A DNA stretch of 33,950 bases from Candidatus Acetothermia bacterium (lineage in GTDB: Bacteria > Bipolaricaulota > Bipolaricaulia > RBG-16-55-9 > DRXL01): NCBI GenBank assembly GCA_028275205.1, contig JAPWVB010000003.1:1-33950 (forward strand), given 5' to 3'. The translations under genes were made by a program, and so were the position numbers. The stretch's first letter is position 1. Every line of letters starts with the position of its first letter. This document shows, in pieces, positions 18,313 to 25,520 of this stretch. Under the pieces are notes generated by a model, which made no database searches, had not been told where the DNA came from, and saw only the letters and a list, made by a program, of their open reading frames with translations.

Positions 18313-19401
18313 ATGCGTCGAGTCTTGAGTGTCTCTGAGGGCGAAGCGGGCTCTCGGCTTGACCAATGGCTCTTAGCGCGCTTGAGCGAGCCCACACTGA
18401 CGCGCTCGCGCTTGCAAAAGCTCATACAATCTGGGGCAGTGCAGCTCAATGGCCAGCCCGCTCGAGCGGGGCTGCGCCTGCGCCCACACGATATCGTCAT
18501 CATCGAGCTTCCTGAGGACGCCCCAGAAGAAACCCTCGAACCTGAGCCCTTCACCCTGCCCATACTCTACGAAGACGAGCATATCATCGCGATTGACAAG
18601 CCCGCGGGCATGGTCGTTTACCCCGCGGCAGGACACCCGCGCGGCACGGTGCTTAATCAGCTCATCAGTCATTGTGCTCTGGCGAGCTTCGGGGCGCCCG
18701 CTCGCCCCGGGGTCGTCCATCGCTTGGACGAGGGGACAAGTGGAGTCTTAGTACTTGCTAAGACTGACTTAGCGTATCTGAAGCTCGTCGAGCAGTTCAA
18801 GAATCGCCAGATCGAGAAGATCTATCTCGCTGTAGTACACGGGCGCATCGCCGAAGACGAAGGGCGGATCGAAGGCCCCATCGGGCGCGACCCCGCGCAC
18901 CGCCAACGCATGAGGATAGTCGCTGCGGGAAAGCCGGCGATCACGGAGTTCCGCGTGCTCAAAAGATTCGACGAAGTGACAGTGCTTGAGGTGCGCCCGC
19001 TGACGGGGAGAACTCATCAGATTCGGGTGCACTTGAGCGCGATTGGGCACCCGGTCGTGGGTGACGATCTGTATGGGCCAGGCTTCGCCTGGCCAGACTT
19101 CGTCTGGACTGTGCGCCTTCGCCGGCCAATGGCCGGCGAAGCTGTACGGTCCAGGCGAAGCCTGGGGCTCCATGCGTGGCATATGAAGCTCGCGCACCCG
19201 ATCACGGGAGAGCGCCTAGAGCTTGTGGCTCCCATCCCTGTGGAGTTTCTCCCACTGCTGCAGGGCTATGACGATATACTCACCAAGAGCAGCGTAGGAG
19301 AGCGCGATGCCCCCATAGAGCACAAAGAGAGCGATACGGGAGAGAACCGGGAAGATGGGCTCGAGCAGGAGCCCCACCAGCCCCACGGAGAGCATCGTTG
19401 A
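18313..19401 (+). CDS. RluD-like 23S rRNA pseudouridine synthase with in-frame palindromic insert and C-terminal extension
   Basis: The track ORF starts at 18022 inside the antisense of rimP; the ATG at 18313 (MRRVLSVSEGEAGSRLDQWL) is the sensible start, giving 362 residues. An S4-like RNA-binding domain (1-75, SRLQKLIQSGAVQLNGQPAR) precedes the RluA/RluD catalytic domain with DKPAGMVVYPAAGH and VVHRLDEGTSGVLVLAKT, where the Asp of HRLDEGTSG is catalytic. RPLTGRTHQIRVHLSAIGHP follows. It converts uridines to pseudouridine, probably in 23S rRNA. Between HPVVGDDLYG and LHAWHMKLAHP, where relatives have a short variable loop, lie about 29 residues encoded by a palindromic element (19078-19165). 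The last 50 residues are charged and lie over the antisense 3' end of the phosphatidyltransferase gene. Confidence 0.9.
   Translation: MRRVLSVSEGEAGSRLDQWLLARLSEPTLTRSRLQKLIQSGAVQLNGQPARAGLRLRPHDIVIIELPEDAPEETLEPEPFTLPILYEDEHIIAIDKPAGMVVYPAAGHPRGTVLNQLISHCALASFGAPARPGVVHRLDEGTSGVLVLAKTDLAYLKLVEQFKNRQIEKIYLAVVHGRIAEDEGRIEGPIGRDPAHRQRMRIVAAGKPAITEFRVLKRFDEVTVLEVRPLTGRTHQIRVHLSAIGHPVVGDDLYGPGFAWPDFVWTVRLRRPMAGEAVRSRRSLGLHAWHMKLAHPITGERLELVAPIPVEFLPLLQGYDDILTKSSVGERDAPIEHKESDTGENREDGLEQEPHQPHGEHR
19078..19165. repeat. Nested palindromic element inserted in frame in the rluD-like gene
   Basis: The 88 bp begin with CCAGGCTTCGCCTGG (19078-19092) and end with its reverse complement CCAGGCGAAGCCTGG (19151-19165); each is itself a 6-bp hairpin. 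Next to the first is CCAGACTTCGTCTGG (19093-19107), differing by a G-C to A-T change on both sides of the stem. The centre is a perfect 11-bp hairpin CTTCGCCGGCC-AAT-GGCCGGCGAAG (19117-19141), inside a longer imperfect palindrome from about 19104 to 19154. It is translated without stop or frame change. It resembles in concept the palindromic elements found inside Rickettsia and cyanobacterial genes. Confidence 0.85.
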
Positions 19402-20396: not shown

Positions 20397-21395
20397 TCAA
20401 GCTTTGTCGAACAGTCCCAACTGATGGGCCTTGTGGGAGGATTGGCGCTTGAGCGCCTGGGCGGCTTGGTGGCTGGCGTTGTGAGCATGCTGAATCGGCT
20501 CTGGTAAGAGATTCTTCAACGTCAGTTGAGTCAGCTCAATAGCAGTCTCTAGATCTATGCGATGCCCCGGCGAGACGAAGAATGGCTCAGACGAATCTGC
20601 AGGTTTGATTGCAGCCCCCGCGCGCTGGCCCCCAACGCGAATGTAACAGATCTCGCCGGGCGCTAAGCTCCGAAGATCTCTCTCAGGCTCGCCGTGTAAG
20701 AGCGATTTCGTGATCCCGATCGTGGGGATATCAAGCATCACGCCCAACTGAGAGGCGATGCCCGCTTGGCGATGATGGAGCGTCCCCGTGCCATCCACAA
20801 AAGTGATATCGGCGAGGGCGTTCTGTTCTTTGAGCTTTTGGAGTAAGGCGAGCATCACCGGCAGCTCGCGGAATGCCAAATAGCTGGGGATATACGGGAA
20901 GCGCACCTCTTGTGTGAGCGTGTGCGTCTCGATGAGGGTTAAGCTCGGCAGCTCCAAGCGCACATACGCTGCGACGCCTTGGGTTCCTACGTATGAGAGA
21001 TCCACCCCGCCCGCGGTGCGATAGTCCGATCTATCAGGGACGAGGCGCATCTGCGCTCGGATGGCGTTTTGGATCTCTTGGAGTTTCTGGAGGGGTTTTT
21101 CGCTGCGGAAATCGCGAAAGAGAAATTTTGTCAGCGAGAGCACGCGGCCGCCTTTGACGGGGACGCCCTCAGCTTGAAGGAGCTGAGCTTGTTCTTCCGT
21201 GACTGTGCCATCGAAGCTCACGACGCGATGGCTGGGGCAGTCTCTCTTATGCTGAGCCAAGATCGAGCCCACGGCGCGCGCGGCGATGGGATCGCCAAGC
21301 GCGAGGGCGATCTCGCGGAACGTCGCGACTTTGCCCTGAGGAATCTGAGCGACCAGCTCGAGAGTAATCTTTTCGATGTCGGGCAGGGCGAGCAT
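20397..21395 (-). CDS. Alkyltransferase-like (Ada/ATL) - endonuclease V fusion with C-terminal clamp-binding-like motif
   Basis: Two domains are visible in 332 residues. Residues 1-95 match the DNA-binding domain of O6-alkylguanine-DNA alkyltransferases: GKVATFREIALALGDPIAAR, AVGSILAQHKRDCPSHRVV, then GTVTEEQAQLLQAEGVPV. The active-site PCHRV is PSHRV here, so the acceptor Cys is Ser and the domain may bind alkylated guanine without repair, like ATL proteins. Residues about 100-300 are endonuclease V: TAGGVDLSYVG, FPYIPSYLAFRELP (PYIP wedge and catalytic Glu), DGTGTLHHRQAGIASQLG, GITKSLLHGE and FVSPGHRIDLETAIEL. Endonuclease V cuts next to deoxyinosine or inosine. The extreme C-terminus is HQLGLFDKA, fitting the beta-clamp-binding QL[SD]LF-type peptide. 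AGT-endonuclease V fusions are known from archaea such as Ferroplasma, with an active AGT. It is 24 bases downstream of the RHH gene. Confidence 0.88.
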   Translation of the reverse strand: MLALPDIEKITLELVAQIPQGKVATFREIALALGDPIAARAVGSILAQHKRDCPSHRVVSFDGTVTEEQAQLLQAEGVPVKGGRVLSLTKFLFRDFRSEKPLQKLQEIQNAIRAQMRLVPDRSDYRTAGGVDLSYVGTQGVAAYVRLELPSLTLIETHTLTQEVRFPYIPSYLAFRELPVMLALLQKLKEQNALADITFVDGTGTLHHRQAGIASQLGVMLDIPTIGITKSLLHGEPERDLRSLAPGEICYIRVGGQRAGAAIKPADSSEPFFVSPGHRIDLETAIELTQLTLKNLLPEPIQHAHNASHQAAQALKRQSSHKAHQLGLFDKA

Positions 21396-21419: not shown

Positions 21420-21677
21420 TCACTTGGAGTACTCCTTCACCAGCAGGGCGATGGCCTCGCGCATCAGTTCAGATTTATTAGCTTTGCGCCCGGTGCGCTT
21501 GCGGATTTGCAACTGAAGCTCCTCCAGGGCGATAATATCATCTGGGGTCAGGTAGAACGTCGCTTTCACCAGCCCTGGTGCGGACTCTTCGGGATCTTTG
21601 GGCGTGGGCTTGTAAAAATCCTTCATGATCTCGCTTTCGGCAAGCGGATCATGTGCGATAGAGCGACGCGGCTTCAT
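21420..21677 (-). CDS. Small ribbon-helix-helix protein, probable ParA partner
   Basis: The 85-residue protein has a disordered, charged N-terminus (MKPRRSIAHDPLAESEIMKD) and a C-terminal RHH-like fold: KATFYLTPDDIIALEELQLQ (strand and first helix) and RKANKSELMREAIALLVKEY (second helix, with the typical N-K-S-E). Such proteins bind DNA as dimers and act as centromere-binding partners or autorepressors of ParA-type ATPases. Its ATG overlaps the parA stop by 4 bases, so the two are co-translated. Basic and Pro-rich N-terminal tails in similar partners stimulate ParA ATPase; that role here is inference. No ParB/Spo0J-type protein is in the window. Confidence 0.75.
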   Translation of the reverse strand: MKPRRSIAHDPLAESEIMKDFYKPTPKDPEESAPGLVKATFYLTPDDIIALEELQLQIRKRTGRKANKSELMREAIALLVKEYSK

Positions 21678-22465
21678 CGAGCGATCACCTGCGCTTCTTG
21701 AGCGCGATGGCCATTAGAGCTTGGAGTTCCCTCAAGAACACGCTCAGCTAATCTTTTGTAATCTTGGGCGCCGTAGGAAGTGGGATCGTACTCGAAGATC
21801 GTCTGGTGGTGGCTGGCGGCTTCAGCCAGGCGCACGTTGGCGCGGATGGGCTCGGTGACTTTGGCGCCAAAGTGCAGTTCTAATCTCTCTAAGACTTCGC
21901 GGCTCTTGCGGTTGCGCCCGTCGTAGAACGTGGGGATGACCAGCGACACCTCGATGGGGTGTTCTAAGATCTCGCGGACCATCTTGAGGTTCTCTAAGAT
22001 CTGCTTGACGCCCACGAGCGCTAAATAGTCCATGCTCACGGGGATGAACGCTTCGTCGGCGTAGACGATAGCGTTCTGATTTAAGAGATTTAAGCTGGGC
22101 GGGCAATCCAAGAGCACAAAATCATAGCCGGAGAGCTTGGCGAGCTTGCGGCTGAGGACGCGCTCGCGCCCCGGAAGCCCCGTCAGAATCAATTCGGCCT
22201 GGGCGGCGGTCTTCGTGCTTGGGAGAATATCTATATGCTCGCGCACCGAGAGAATACACTCGTGGGGCGTGGTCATCTCATCGACGAGCAAGTGATAGAG
22301 CGACTTCTGGGGGACGACGTCGAACCACGTAGCTACGTTGCCTTGGGGGTCCATGTCAATTAAGAGAACTCTCTGATTGTAGAGGGCCAAGGCCGCTGCG
22401 AGATTGACGGCGGTTGTGGTCTTGGCCGTGCCCCCTTTCTGATTGATGATCGCGATCTTGCGCAT
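21674..22465 (-). CDS. ParA/Soj-family chromosome or plasmid partition ATPase
   Basis: The track starts 27 codons upstream in palindrome-rich DNA; the ATG at 22465 (MRKIAIINQKGGTAKTTTAV) preceded by GAGGTGAGAGG is the clear start, giving 263 residues. The deviant Walker A KGGTAKTT (usually KGGxGKTT, here Ala replaces the second Gly), Walker A' VLLIDMDPQGNVATWF and Walker B YDFVLLDCPPSLNLL are present. It should bind DNA nonspecifically in its ATP form and move cargo with its RHH partner. The size and lack of an N-terminal HTH resemble chromosomal Soj or type Ib ParA. The lack of parB argues against the main chromosomal ori system. Confidence 0.9.
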   Translation of the reverse strand: MRKIAIINQKGGTAKTTTAVNLAAALALYNQRVLLIDMDPQGNVATWFDVVPQKSLYHLLVDEMTTPHECILSVREHIDILPSTKTAAQAELILTGLPGRERVLSRKLAKLSGYDFVLLDCPPSLNLLNQNAIVYADEAFIPVSMDYLALVGVKQILENLKMVREILEHPIEVSLVIPTFYDGRNRKSREVLERLELHFGAKVTEPIRANVRLAEAASHHQTIFEYDPTSYGAQDYKRLAERVLEGTPSSNGHRAQEAQVIAR

Positions 22466-22489
22466 CCTCTCACCTCGTTCGGATTGTGA

Positions 22490-22524
22490 TGGCATGCCAG
22501 CACAATGGCTTAGCGCCATTGTGC
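22490..22524. promoter_or_regulatory. Adjacent palindromes upstream of parA, candidate RHH operator/centromere
   Basis: TGGCATGCCA (22490-22499) is a perfect 10-bp palindrome. Directly beside it GCACAATGGC-TTAGC-GCCATTGTGC (22500-22524) is a perfect 10-bp inverted repeat. They lie 25-59 bases upstream of the parA ATG, where an RHH repressor or partition complex would bind. There is no T-tract, so the hairpin is unlikely to be a simple terminator. Confidence 0.5.
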
Positions 22525-22538
22525 CACAAGAAAGAGAG

Positions 22539-22565
22539 CCTCCCAAGGACAGCTGTCCCTTGAGG
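22539..22565 (-). terminator. Possible terminator after larC
   Basis: On the minus strand CCTCAAGGGACAG is followed by CTGTCCTTGGGAGG, forming an imperfect hairpin around the palindrome GGACAGCTGTCC (22547-22558). The next bases on that strand are CTCTCTTTCTTG, a pyrimidine/T-rich run. It begins about 13 bases after the larC stop. Confidence 0.5.
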
Positions 22566-22578
22566 ATGGGGAGGACGC

Positions 22579-23748
22579 TCAGGCTGAACGACTTGCAGCT
22601 TCGGTCGCCGCACGGTAGATCTCTTTTAACGCGACGCCCCGCTCTTCCGCAAGCCTCTTGCAGTCCTCATACTCCGGCGCAATATTGATAATCTCAGAGC
22701 CCAGCATCCCCAGCTTCACCCGAACTTGCCCATACGGCGTCTGAACTTCTATAATTTTTCGGGCGAGCTTCTTGCGCTTCACTGAATAATAGATCGCCCC
22801 CAGCGTCGTCGTCTCGCGAAAGAGTATCTCGCAGAGCTTGTCCACTACCGCAGCATCGCAGAGCACGCGCACGAGCAGCCCAGGACGCCCCTTCTTCATC
22901 AAAATAGTGTGGGCGCTGACGCTCTTGGCCCCATGATCAAAGAGCTTCTGCTGCACATAGGGGAAGAGCTCCGGGTTCATGTCGTCAATCTCTGTTTCGA
23001 TGACGACGGTCTCGTCTTGTTCGAAATCTGTGACGCTCTCGCCAACGAGAACTCTCAGCACGTTAGGCTGCGGGAGGTCTTTCGTGCCCGCGCCATAGCC
23101 GATCTGGTGCCAGCGCGCTGGCGGCATGGCAAACTCCGGGGAGAGATATTTCAGAAGCGCCGCGCCGGTGGGCGTGGTCAGTTCTGTCTCGATCCCCGAC
23201 GAATAGACCGGAAAATCTTTGAGAAGCTCAAGCGTCGCCGGCGCGGGCACGGGGAGTCTGCCATGTGCCGTCTCGATCATACCGGACCCGAGATTAATCT
23301 TAGACGCGTACCATTGGTCAATCTGTAACGACTCTATCGCGACGGCAGCCCCGACGATGTCGCATATCGAATCGAGGGCGCCCAGCTCGTGGAAGTGCAC
23401 GTCATCTATAGCAATGCTGTGAATCTTCGCTTCGGCTTGGGCGAGAGCGCTGAAGATCGCGATGGCTCGCGCCTTCTCGGCAGGCGTCAATGAGCTCTTC
23501 TCAACCAGCGTGCGAATCTCCGACCAGTGCCGATGCGCATGAGAGTGGAAATCTGACTCAAAGCGCAGGTGGGTGGCAGCGATGCCCTGGCGCATCACGC
23601 GTTCGGTGCGCACCGAGATTGGGCCTAGGCCAAGCTGCGAGAGCTTCTCGCTCAAGAGCTGAGCTGTAATGAGCTGGGCGTCTATGAGCGCCGCGAGGAA
23701 CATATCTCCGGCGATGCCGGAGAAGCAGTCTAAGTATGCGATCTTCAT
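22579..23748 (-). CDS. larC: Nickel-pincer cofactor biosynthesis protein LarC
   Basis: The 389-residue protein opens with MKIAYLDCFSGIAGDMFLAA, the LarC (former DUF111) N-terminus. HSIAIDDVHFHELGALDSIC and VYSSGIETELTTPTGAALL follow, with ETEIDDMNPELFPYVQQKLF and GAKSVSAHTILMKKGRPGLL in the C-terminal part. LarC inserts nickel into the pyridinium-dithiocarboxylate nucleotide in a CTP-dependent step, finishing the NPN cofactor of lactate racemase and relatives. Here it is one continuous ORF, unlike the two-frame larC of Lactobacillus plantarum. It overlaps the larE-larB fusion by 4 bases, so the pathway is co-translated. Confidence 0.93.
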   Translation of the reverse strand: MKIAYLDCFSGIAGDMFLAALIDAQLITAQLLSEKLSQLGLGPISVRTERVMRQGIAATHLRFESDFHSHAHRHWSEIRTLVEKSSLTPAEKARAIAIFSALAQAEAKIHSIAIDDVHFHELGALDSICDIVGAAVAIESLQIDQWYASKINLGSGMIETAHGRLPVPAPATLELLKDFPVYSSGIETELTTPTGAALLKYLSPEFAMPPARWHQIGYGAGTKDLPQPNVLRVLVGESVTDFEQDETVVIETEIDDMNPELFPYVQQKLFDHGAKSVSAHTILMKKGRPGLLVRVLCDAAVVDKLCEILFRETTTLGAIYYSVKRKKLARKIIEVQTPYGQVRVKLGMLGSEIINIAPEYEDCKRLAEERGVALKEIYRAATEAASRSA

Positions 23749-25205
23749 GGTTCGTTGATCTTCGTCGCCAGCACGGCTGCGCCGAAGCCGTTATCTATAT
23801 TGACCACAGCCACCCCCGGCGCGCAACTGTTAAGCATCGTGAGCAGCGCCGAAAGCCCGCCAAAGCTCGCCCCGTACCCCACGCCCGTAGGCACAGCAAT
23901 GATGGGTTTATCCACAAGCCCTGCGACGACGCTGGGCAGCACCCCGTCCATCCCCGCCACTACGATCAGCACGCGCGCGGCGTTGAGACGCTCCCGATGC
24001 GCGAGAACTCTGTGCATCCACGCGACTCCGACGTCATAGAGTCGCTCTGTCGGGTTCCCAAGATACTGCGCCGTCACGGCGGCTTCTTCAGCAACGGGGA
24101 TATCTGAAGTTCCGGCGGTGACGACGAGCACGGTGCCACCCTGTGGAGCCTTGGGAGCTCCAAGGGTCAGCAGTCGCGCTTGCTCGTGATAGATCACTTC
24201 AGGGAGCAGCTCTTGCACAGCGCGGGCTTGCTCTGGGGTGGCGCGCGTTGCTAAGACGGGCTCGGTCTTCTTGCGCAGCTCGCTCATGATAGCTGCGATC
24301 TGTTCTGAAGTTTTCCCCGGACAAAAGACGGCCTCAGCGACCCCACAGCGTCCCTCGCGCTCGAGGTCGGGACGAGCGAAAGGGTCTGAGGGCGCGGGGC
24401 TGTGGTCCTTGAGGGCTTCGTTCATGCTGCCGCTGCGATAGCCCATAAGATCGAGCGTCACGTAGCGGAAGCCGAGCTTCTTCAGATGAGTAGCCACAGG
24501 GTCGCGATGCGCTAGCACTGTGGGCATCTCCTCTGGGGGCACTTCAATGCGTGCCATGCCCTCATGATGGCGCACGCGCACTTGGCTCAGCCCCAACCCG
24601 AAGAGAAACTCCTCGGCGTGCTCGATCTGTCTGAGCTTTTCAGGGGTGATCGTACTGCCGTAGGGCAGGCGCGAAGCTAAGCACGCCATCGCAGGCTTCT
24701 CAGCAGTAGGGAGCCCAAGCATCCGCGCGATCTCGCGAATTTCGGGCTTAGTCAGCCCAATCTCCAAGAGCGGGCTGCAAACAGTATATTCTTTGAGGGC
24801 ACGCATACCGGGCCGAAAGTCTTGGGTGTCCGAAGCGTTGGTGCCGTCGAGCACATGGGCAAAGCCGCGCGCGCGAGCTAGCTCGGTGAGCTTGCTGAAG
24901 AGCTCTTGCTTACAGTGAAAACAGCGCGTTGGGGGGTTGTTGACATAGCGCGGGTCGTCCAGCTCGCGCGTGAAGATGATCTCGTGAGGGACGCCAAGCT
25001 GTTGCGCGAGCTTCTGCGCGGCTTCAAGCTCGCGCTGGGCGTAGACGGGCGAGTGCGCCGTCACCGCGAGCACACGATCCCCTAGTTCTTGCTTAGCGAT
25101 AGCTAAGACGACCGAGCTGTCTACTCCCCCCGAGAACGCGACAATAGCACTACCGTAGCTTCGTATCAAGGCTCTCAAAGCCGTCAGTTTCTCTTGCAGG
25201 GTCAT
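23745..25205 (-). CDS. LarE-LarB fusion protein for nickel-pincer nucleotide synthesis
   Basis: The track starts 28 codons upstream, across the divergent promoter; the ATG at 25205 (MTLQEKLTALRALIRSYGSA) is preferred, giving 486 residues. Residues 1-260 are LarE, a PP-loop sulfur transferase: AIVAFSGGVDSSVVLAIAKQ, RCFHCKQELF (Cys95, Cys98) and KPAMACLASRLPYG (Cys175, equivalent to the sacrificial Cys of L. plantarum LarE). Three cysteines of this kind hold a [4Fe-4S] cluster in cluster-type LarE. Residues about 280-486 are LarB, a PurE-like carboxylase/hydrolase: VLVVTAGTSDIPVAEEAAVT and GVGYGASFGGLSALLTMLNS. LarB makes the dicarboxylated pyridinium nucleotide from nicotinate adenine dinucleotide and LarE thiolates it. 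LarB's usual N-terminal 30-40 residues appear shortened at the join. Confidence 0.92.
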   Translation of the reverse strand: MTLQEKLTALRALIRSYGSAIVAFSGGVDSSVVLAIAKQELGDRVLAVTAHSPVYAQRELEAAQKLAQQLGVPHEIIFTRELDDPRYVNNPPTRCFHCKQELFSKLTELARARGFAHVLDGTNASDTQDFRPGMRALKEYTVCSPLLEIGLTKPEIREIARMLGLPTAEKPAMACLASRLPYGSTITPEKLRQIEHAEEFLFGLGLSQVRVRHHEGMARIEVPPEEMPTVLAHRDPVATHLKKLGFRYVTLDLMGYRSGSMNEALKDHSPAPSDPFARPDLEREGRCGVAEAVFCPGKTSEQIAAIMSELRKKTEPVLATRATPEQARAVQELLPEVIYHEQARLLTLGAPKAPQGGTVLVVTAGTSDIPVAEEAAVTAQYLGNPTERLYDVGVAWMHRVLAHRERLNAARVLIVVAGMDGVLPSVVAGLVDKPIIAVPTGVGYGASFGGLSALLTMLNSCAPGVAVVNIDNGFGAAVLATKINEP

Positions 25206-25211
25206 ACTGCA

Positions 25212-25240
25212 ACTGTAGCGAGTTGGTTGCGGGTGCGCAA
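25212..25240 (-). promoter_or_regulatory. Putative larEB promoter (divergent, overlapping)
   Basis: On the minus strand TTGCGC (25240-25235), a 17-base spacer and TACAGT (25217-25212) lie just before the ATG at 25205, so the leader would be almost absent. The -35 box lies in one arm of the inverted repeat GGTTGCG-GGTG-CGCAACC (25225-25242). Confidence 0.5.
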
Positions 25241-25255
25241 CCCCAAAACTATAAT
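25227..25255 (+). promoter_or_regulatory. Putative promoter of the frameshifted gene (divergent, overlapping)
   Basis: TTGCGG (25227-25232), a 17-base spacer and TATAAT (25250-25255). The expected start near 25262 is about 5 bases before the ATG at 25267, so the mRNA would be nearly leaderless. The -35 box is the other arm of the 25225-25242 inverted repeat and interlocks with the minus-strand promoter. It may also feed pdxS. Confidence 0.6.
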
Positions 25256-25266
25256 GAGGCAGCGCT

Positions 25267-25520
25267 ATGGCTGAACCCCAAGGGATCACAGCGGAGCTCT
25301 ATCGCGCCATTGTCACTATAGTAGAGGACATCGCGCGCGTCGTGCTGCCGGGGTATCTGAAACAACGCTATGTGGGGTCACAGTAGAGCGATTAGAACGC
25401 CGCATCTTCTCTGTGGATGGGCAACGGTTCGATGTCGATCTGTATGCCGAAGTTGCTGCGTATCAGCCCACTATGGAAGCGACGGCGCCGCGTCGCCGCC
25501 GTCGCACAAAAAGAGTATAA
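25267..25520 (+). pseudogene. Frameshifted small gene (two frames, together about 84 residues)
   Basis: No track ORF covers this stretch. From ATG 25267 frame one reads MAEPQGITAELYRAIVTIVE and ends at TAG 25384-25386 after 39 codons. From 25377 the -1 frame continues as VTVERLERRIFSVDGQRFDV, then DLYAEVAAYQ, and ends TKRV at TAA 25518-25520. Both halves look coding, and joining them at GGGG (25374-25377) by -1 slippage, or by restoring one G, gives a coherent protein with a basic tail (APRRRRRTKRV). It faintly recalls small DUF3782-like proteins. It may be a real pseudogene, a sequencing error in a G run, or programmed frameshifting. Its position between larEB and pdxS with its own promoter suggests it was recently functional. 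Confidence 0.6.

Follow-up and report, generated by a model that had tools for sequence, protein, structure and literature searches.

The window analysed here, 33,950 nucleotides of contig JAPWVB010000003.1 of Candidatus Acetothermia bacterium, contains a gene for a ParA-type ATPase followed by the gene of a small ribbon-helix-helix (RHH) type protein, with a cluster of palindromes just upstream. We consider it likely that the pair is a domesticated, chromosome-borne cassette of the plasmid type (Ib/SegAB-like), in which the palindromes would act as operator/cargo site and the N-terminal tag of the RHH protein would dock on ParA, a tag that in the sister family f8 is found on FtsZ. The gene order, its conservation, a common promoter block and the common tag are the observations from which the rest of this reading is inferred.

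The parA-rhh gene pair

The two genes of the cassette are the following:

21674..22465, minus strand: parA, encoding ParA1, a 263-aa Walker-type ParA ATPase with no N-terminal HTH
21420..21677, minus strand: RHH partner, 85 aa, with the tag at residues 1-24, a linker, and the RHH core at about residues 38-84

The first-pass annotation, made on the letters of the window, had proposed a parA-RHH pair downstream of the palindromes; the ParA is a small one, of 263 aa and HTH-less. The Walker A motif, KGGTAKTT, occupies residues 10-17 and the AAA_31 match starts at residue 1. The best solved relative is the Soj protein of Thermus (1wcv, 3e-50). The Ala in place of the usual Gly in this Walker A motif was observed in two genera of the window's family, f1, while G006, of the same family, and the f8 proteins have Gly.

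Of 100 Bipolaricaulota genomes, 15 have an orthologue of ParA1, 10 of f1 and 5 of f8, and these orthologues form a clade with 100/100 support; a sixteenth row of this search, the second ParA of G004, was not counted. The parA and RHH genes, which overlap by 4 bases (ATGA), are intact and adjacent in 10 genomes, representing three genera, and dN/dS is 0.04-0.11 in parA, 0-0.05 in the tag and 0.01-0.08 in the RHH core, values to be read with synonymous sites near saturation.

In the partner, a near-invariant tag at the N-terminus is joined by a variable linker to a C-terminal core that has a K-SEL-REAI, RHH-like pattern. It is predicted to be of the RHH type from this pattern and, weakly, from Pfam matches below the curated cut-off (RHH_1, E=0.006; RHH_3, 4.9e-4, in an orthologue). 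Its N-terminal tail (MKPRRS...) is basic, near invariant and predicted to be flexible; in the AlphaFold model of the monomer (pLDDT 69.7) the block means over residues 1-40 are 48-61. A Foldseek search with this model gave no significant structural match, as expected, since the fold needs the dimer.

By tblastn against 72,556 plasmid records, the RHH protein gave five weak and partial matches, four of them on small linear plasmids of Streptomyces. In the two Streptomyces plasmids examined, the matched protein, which is not annotated, is encoded directly 3' of the ParA gene with an overlap of 4 bases, which indicates independently that the core belongs to a partner of ParA. Outside the phylum the search covered plasmids, phages and viral contigs, and genomes were scanned once with the RHH protein; no full-length relative was found on phage, plasmid or viral contigs, and all the relatives in named genomes belong to Candidatus Bipolaricaulota/Acetothermia MAGs.

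The window belongs, as one contig, to a MAG of 1.19 Mb that is 61% complete. The absence of parB, which had been noticed from the window, extends to this MAG and to 40 members of the class, in none of which the HTH_ParB profile found a match (23 of the 40 are at least 90% complete; the controls were positive). The ParB_N matches seen in f1 are only weak and mostly below the cut-off, in short frames of 129-148 aa. In none of the genomes checked do parA and dnaA share a contig. Thus 'plasmid-type, Ib-like', as the pair had been called, is a fair description as far as it concerns the small HTH-less ParA, a partner that is RHH-type by sequence and weakly so by Pfam, the lack of a canonical ParB, and plasmid matches of the core that adjoin parA.

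The further suggestion of a plasmid remnant was not supported. That the pair is such a remnant, or a selfish partition cassette with no role for the host, could be argued from the related ParA and RHH pairs present on plasmids, but we regard it as very unlikely: both genes are intact and under strong purifying selection in three genera, no full-length RHH relative is carried by a plasmid, phage or viral contig, and one family, f8, has wired ParA to FtsZ (see below). Moreover, no mobile gene was recognised among the neighbours tested. The gene upstream of parA in the window is larC, and 3' of the pair there is a fused alkyltransferase-like/endonuclease V gene, the same repair gene that follows the cassette in two of the three genera.

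The region upstream of parA

The elements recognised between larC and parA are listed below in the direction of parA transcription:

22547..22558, no strand: palindrome GGACAGCTGTCC, abutting the -35-like element; GACA-N2-YGTCC in most of 9 genomes
22541..22546, minus strand: -35-like element TTGGGA; TTGGnn in 9/9, 17 bp from the -10 (18 in G004)
22518..22526, minus strand: extended -10-like element TGG-CACAAT; TGn-CAnnnT in 9/9
22500..22524, no strand: 25-bp hairpin GCACAATGGC-TTAGC-GCCATTGTGC, spanning the -10 and the likely start site
22490..22499, no strand: palindrome TGGCATGCCA, just 3' of the likely start site; TGG(C/T)(A/G)TRCCR in other genomes
22466..22474, minus strand: ribosome-binding stretch GGTGAGAGG, invariant

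The three perfect palindromes are exactly where the first-pass annotation had placed them. Taken singly, palindromes of such lengths are frequent in the window and it is their cluster that is unusual: perfect palindromes of at least 10 bp are 67 against a mean of 47 in 60 shuffles, and hairpins with arms of at least 10 bp are 5 against a mean of 0.5, while among 1500 dinucleotide-shuffled versions of the window only 3 gave a hairpin with two neighbouring palindromes. With up to 3 mismatches allowed, the 25-mer hairpin recurred neither elsewhere in the window (0.00 matches expected) nor in the host MAG.

The regions upstream of parA were compared in 9 genomes of f1. They have in common a block that consists, in this order, of GACA-N2-YGTCCTTGG (in G004 GACACGTGTCCTTGG), a spacing of 17 bp (18 in G004) and TGnCAnnnT, followed in most of the 9 genomes by CAAGCCA and TGG(C/T)(A/G)TRCC and then by the ribosome-binding stretch. 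The symmetry of the 25-bp hairpin is perfect only in the genome of the window, and in G002, the nearest relative, the arms are already disrupted; the outer two palindromes are the conserved part of the cluster, and the perfect hairpin between them is not conserved.

TTGGnn and TGn-CAnnnT are spaced like a -35 and an extended -10 element, and a promoter is predicted here from conservation only, since a standard sigma-70 scan of the region found none and the -35-like element does not match the E. coli-type consensus. With the -35 and -10 so placed, GGACAGCTGTCC would abut the -35, the hairpin would extend over the -10 and the likely start site, with TGGCATGCCA immediately 3' of that start. The tenth f1 genome, G006 (locus L009), has a different region upstream of parA, without the block.

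In two genomes the gene upstream of parA is not larC, and the block is kept with parA in both (L003 and L008). At zero mismatches the block was found upstream of parA only, at most once per genome. Because it accompanies parA even next to another upstream gene, and because it occurs once per genome, the block is best read, in its simplest interpretation, as candidate operator and promoter of a self-controlled parA-rhh unit, rather than as a terminator or a dispersed parS. A single local centromere at the block is possible. Further copies of the palindromes, or parS-like sites, had been proposed as something to look for in the genome, and none were found with these motifs: at zero mismatches the 25-mer and the block were found only upstream of parA, and TGGCATRCCR, with 25 matches in the nine genomes against 31 for the backward control, is not in excess. 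Dispersed parS sites were thus rejected for these motifs. The two genomes with a different upstream gene, G004 (L003) and G009 (L008), belong to different genera and have a shorter parA operator and the same non-larC gene upstream, which suggests exchange or relocation of the cassette flank.

The palindromes lie directly after larC and the RNA of this region folds better than shuffles (z = -2.8), as would be expected of a terminator or another RNA element of larC; nevertheless, we judge this origin extremely improbable, as the stem is not kept in relatives, no terminator-like site and no Rfam family was found, and the block remains next to parA where larC is not the upstream gene. A riboswitch was discarded on the same grounds.

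A tag common to the RHH protein and to FtsZ

In f8, the orthologue of ParA1 (60% identity) is encoded within the gene order murG-murC-murB-ftsA-parA-ftsZ, with ftsZ overlapping parA by 8 bases, and the FtsZ encoded there carries the same kind of tag as the RHH protein (NKSVGQDPLDGVMEDFYKS vs RRSIAHDPLAESEIMKDFYKP). The features concerned are:

21606..21677, minus strand of the window: coding stretch of the tag MKPRRSIAHDPLAESEIMKDFYKP, common to the N-termini of f8 FtsZ
L087:7941-9894 (G023), L090 (G029) and L093 (G026): parA between ftsA and ftsZ, the latter encoding the tagged FtsZ

The f8 FtsZ starts with MNKKNKSVGQDPLDGVMEDFYKS, which matches the RHH tag, and continues with a linker of roughly 35-45 residues and a normal FtsZ body. 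The tagged FtsZ is the only FtsZ found in each f8 genome with ParA1, and the FtsZs of f1 have no tag extension; in G038, the sixth f8 genome (70% complete), neither ParA1 nor an FtsZ match was found.

A profile of the tag, built from both groups (f1 RHH and f8 FtsZ), was run over the 100 Bipolaricaulota genomes and gave strong matches in exactly the 15 with ParA1, always just 3' of it, and none in the other 85. As this profile contained both groups, a profile from the f1 RHH proteins only served as an independent test of the match, and with it the five f8 FtsZ N-termini reached 13.1-19.3 bits, whereas the best of about 20,000 shuffles had 9.0. The tag is short and the f8 FtsZs are only five related sequences, so that the FtsZ fusion may go back to a single event and a likeness by chance, or by a bias at translation starts, has to be considered. 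The shuffles never reached the observed scores, and the tag co-occurs exactly with ParA1 in 100 genomes, in the same position after the same gene, which makes such a coincidence highly unlikely.

The tag looks like a ParA-activating docking peptide that has moved between cargos, both the docking and the cargo being inferred. Partners of ParA/MinD ATPases act via short basic N-terminal peptides while the rest of the protein chooses the cargo, and they have been proposed to be modular, with the N-terminal peptide giving the ATPase specificity and the remainder the cargo (PMC7993993, PMC10241942). We lean slightly towards the view that the docking tag passed from the RHH protein to FtsZ, so that the f8 FtsZ would be itself a direct partner and activator of ParA, with no MinC, ParB or adaptor, whereas in the window's family the same ATPase and tag would handle DNA. 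The earlier proposal that the system may position some other cargo thus gains support, of an indirect kind, from the FtsZ-linked version of f8.

By analogy with SegAB and the type Ib cassettes, the RHH protein is expected to bind the palindromes, shut its own promoter and present its tags. A dimer would bind across the -35/-10/start region, repressing parA-rhh and at the same time marking the DNA as cargo; the basic tag would then dock on ATP-bound, nucleoid-bound ParA and trigger ATP hydrolysis, and the tagged cargo would move on the ParA gradient. The tag would be in this way a portable 'luggage tag', which in f8 may bring ParA onto FtsZ, where the division ring would most likely be the target of the ATPase. 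For the window's family, DNA at the parA-rhh locus would be the most probable cargo, and the role chromosome segregation or its coupling to division.

Alternatively, ParA1 could work mainly on the divisome also in f1, in a MipZ/PomZ-like manner, with the RHH protein as an activator that is anchored on DNA and gives the ParA gradient its shape, the DNA not being the cargo. The orthologous ParA between ftsA and ftsZ and the tag common with FtsZ in f8 are in line with this, as are the lack of any MinC match in 40 class members (G000-G039) and the presence in f1 of other ParA systems that could segregate DNA. However, in f1 parA is away from ftsQAZ, FtsZ is untagged and the partner bears a plasmid-type RHH core, and we consider this alternative rather unlikely. 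With no ParB HTH or MinC detected in the 40 class members, either the f1 cassette or the f8 FtsZ system could be a main spatial regulator.

If true, the domesticated cassette would offer, in one ATPase lineage that keeps the tag but exchanges a DNA-binding protein for FtsZ as cargo, direct evolutionary evidence for modular partners, and it would hint at how bacteria in which neither ParB nor MinC was detected position the division ring or segregate the chromosome. We found no paper on FtsZ in Bipolaricaulota.

Related tags in other ParA systems

A second ParA, about 40% identical, is present in f1 and is followed 3' by another small tagged protein, e.g. KRRTTIGTNPLDAV or KRKTIGDNPLDALV. Its loci are L029 (G004), L030 (G006) and L091 (G005); in L029 and L030 the different small partner has its own tag, ending in NPLDA. 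The ParAs of f4 are followed by proteins that start with tags such as KRIVAANPLE or KSIVEENPLE. Moreover, cyanobacterial plasmids encode ParAs with 42-43% identity to ParA1, and 3' of these there are proteins with a related tag, e.g. SVLGANPLAKGVF, and others that start with GKKGSALGKNPL or KSRSVLGANPL. It seems that a widespread tag of ParA partners consists of a basic stretch and then [IVL]-x-x-[DN]-P-L; the DFYK ending would be specific to ParA1. Since plasmids of other phyla have such tags on a separate partner protein, the FtsZ arrangement is probably derived and that with the RHH protein older.

Comparison with known systems

One close parallel is the archaeal SegAB system of the Sulfolobales, in which a chromosomal ParA-type ATPase gene is followed by that of an RHH protein, and SegB (RHH) binds two imperfect palindromes just upstream of segAB (PMC12284271). 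Unlike SegAB, the cassette is bacterial, its tag is common with FtsZ in relatives, and the dispersed sites that SegB has were not seen here with the block or TGGCATRCCR motifs. The searches do not point to orthology with SegA and SegB, as the ATPase is nearest to Thermus Soj among solved structures and the RHH profile found no chain among PDB sequences at E<=5.

The type Ib plasmid cassettes, such as ParF-ParG of TP228 and delta-omega of pSM19035 (reviewed in PMC9178275), also have a small HTH-less ParA and a partner with a flexible basic N-terminus; their RHH partner and their sites upstream of the ATPase gene would correspond to the predicted RHH protein and the candidate operator here. The present cassette differs from them in being apparently chromosomal and vertically kept, in its unique upstream block in place of a repeat array, and in a tag portable to FtsZ.

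With PomXYZ and MipZ it would share a ParA-type ATPase tied to the placement of the Z-ring and a short basic N-terminal activating peptide (PMC7993993 for PomX), but the f8 peptide forms part of FtsZ and a separate adaptor is lacking. MipZ is not the best-matching family of ParA1, as the PF09140 match (1.2e-8) is far weaker than that to AAA_31 (2.6e-48), and no ParB was found in the 40 genomes. Finally, chromosomal ParABS resembles it in that Soj is the nearest solved structure of ParA1, and differs in that here neither a ParB HTH nor parS-like copies of the block were seen.

Other observations

In the families f6, f7 and f9 (G019-G039) most genomes have two FtsZ genes, and those of f1 and f8 mostly one. 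The DnaA of f1 (e.g. G000:C45:853-1881) matches its profile only from about residue 89-100 on, in frames down to 358 aa, which suggests that domain I is absent or has diverged strongly; the DnaA of f8 is full length.

In the window, the repair gene 3' of the cassette (20397-21395, minus strand) encodes a methylguanine-methyltransferase-type DNA-binding domain fused to endonuclease V; the PCHR active-site motif appears in it as PSHR, and it looks like a fusion of an alkyltransferase-like protein with endonuclease V. Upstream of larC, a single ORF (23745-25289, minus strand) has an ATP-pyrophosphatase-type N-terminus and a C-terminal AIR carboxylase domain and is probably a LarE-LarB fusion. Dense inverted repeats, with arms up to 36 nt and units like CCAGGCTTCGCCTGG, occupy positions 19078-19165 and are possibly REP-like.
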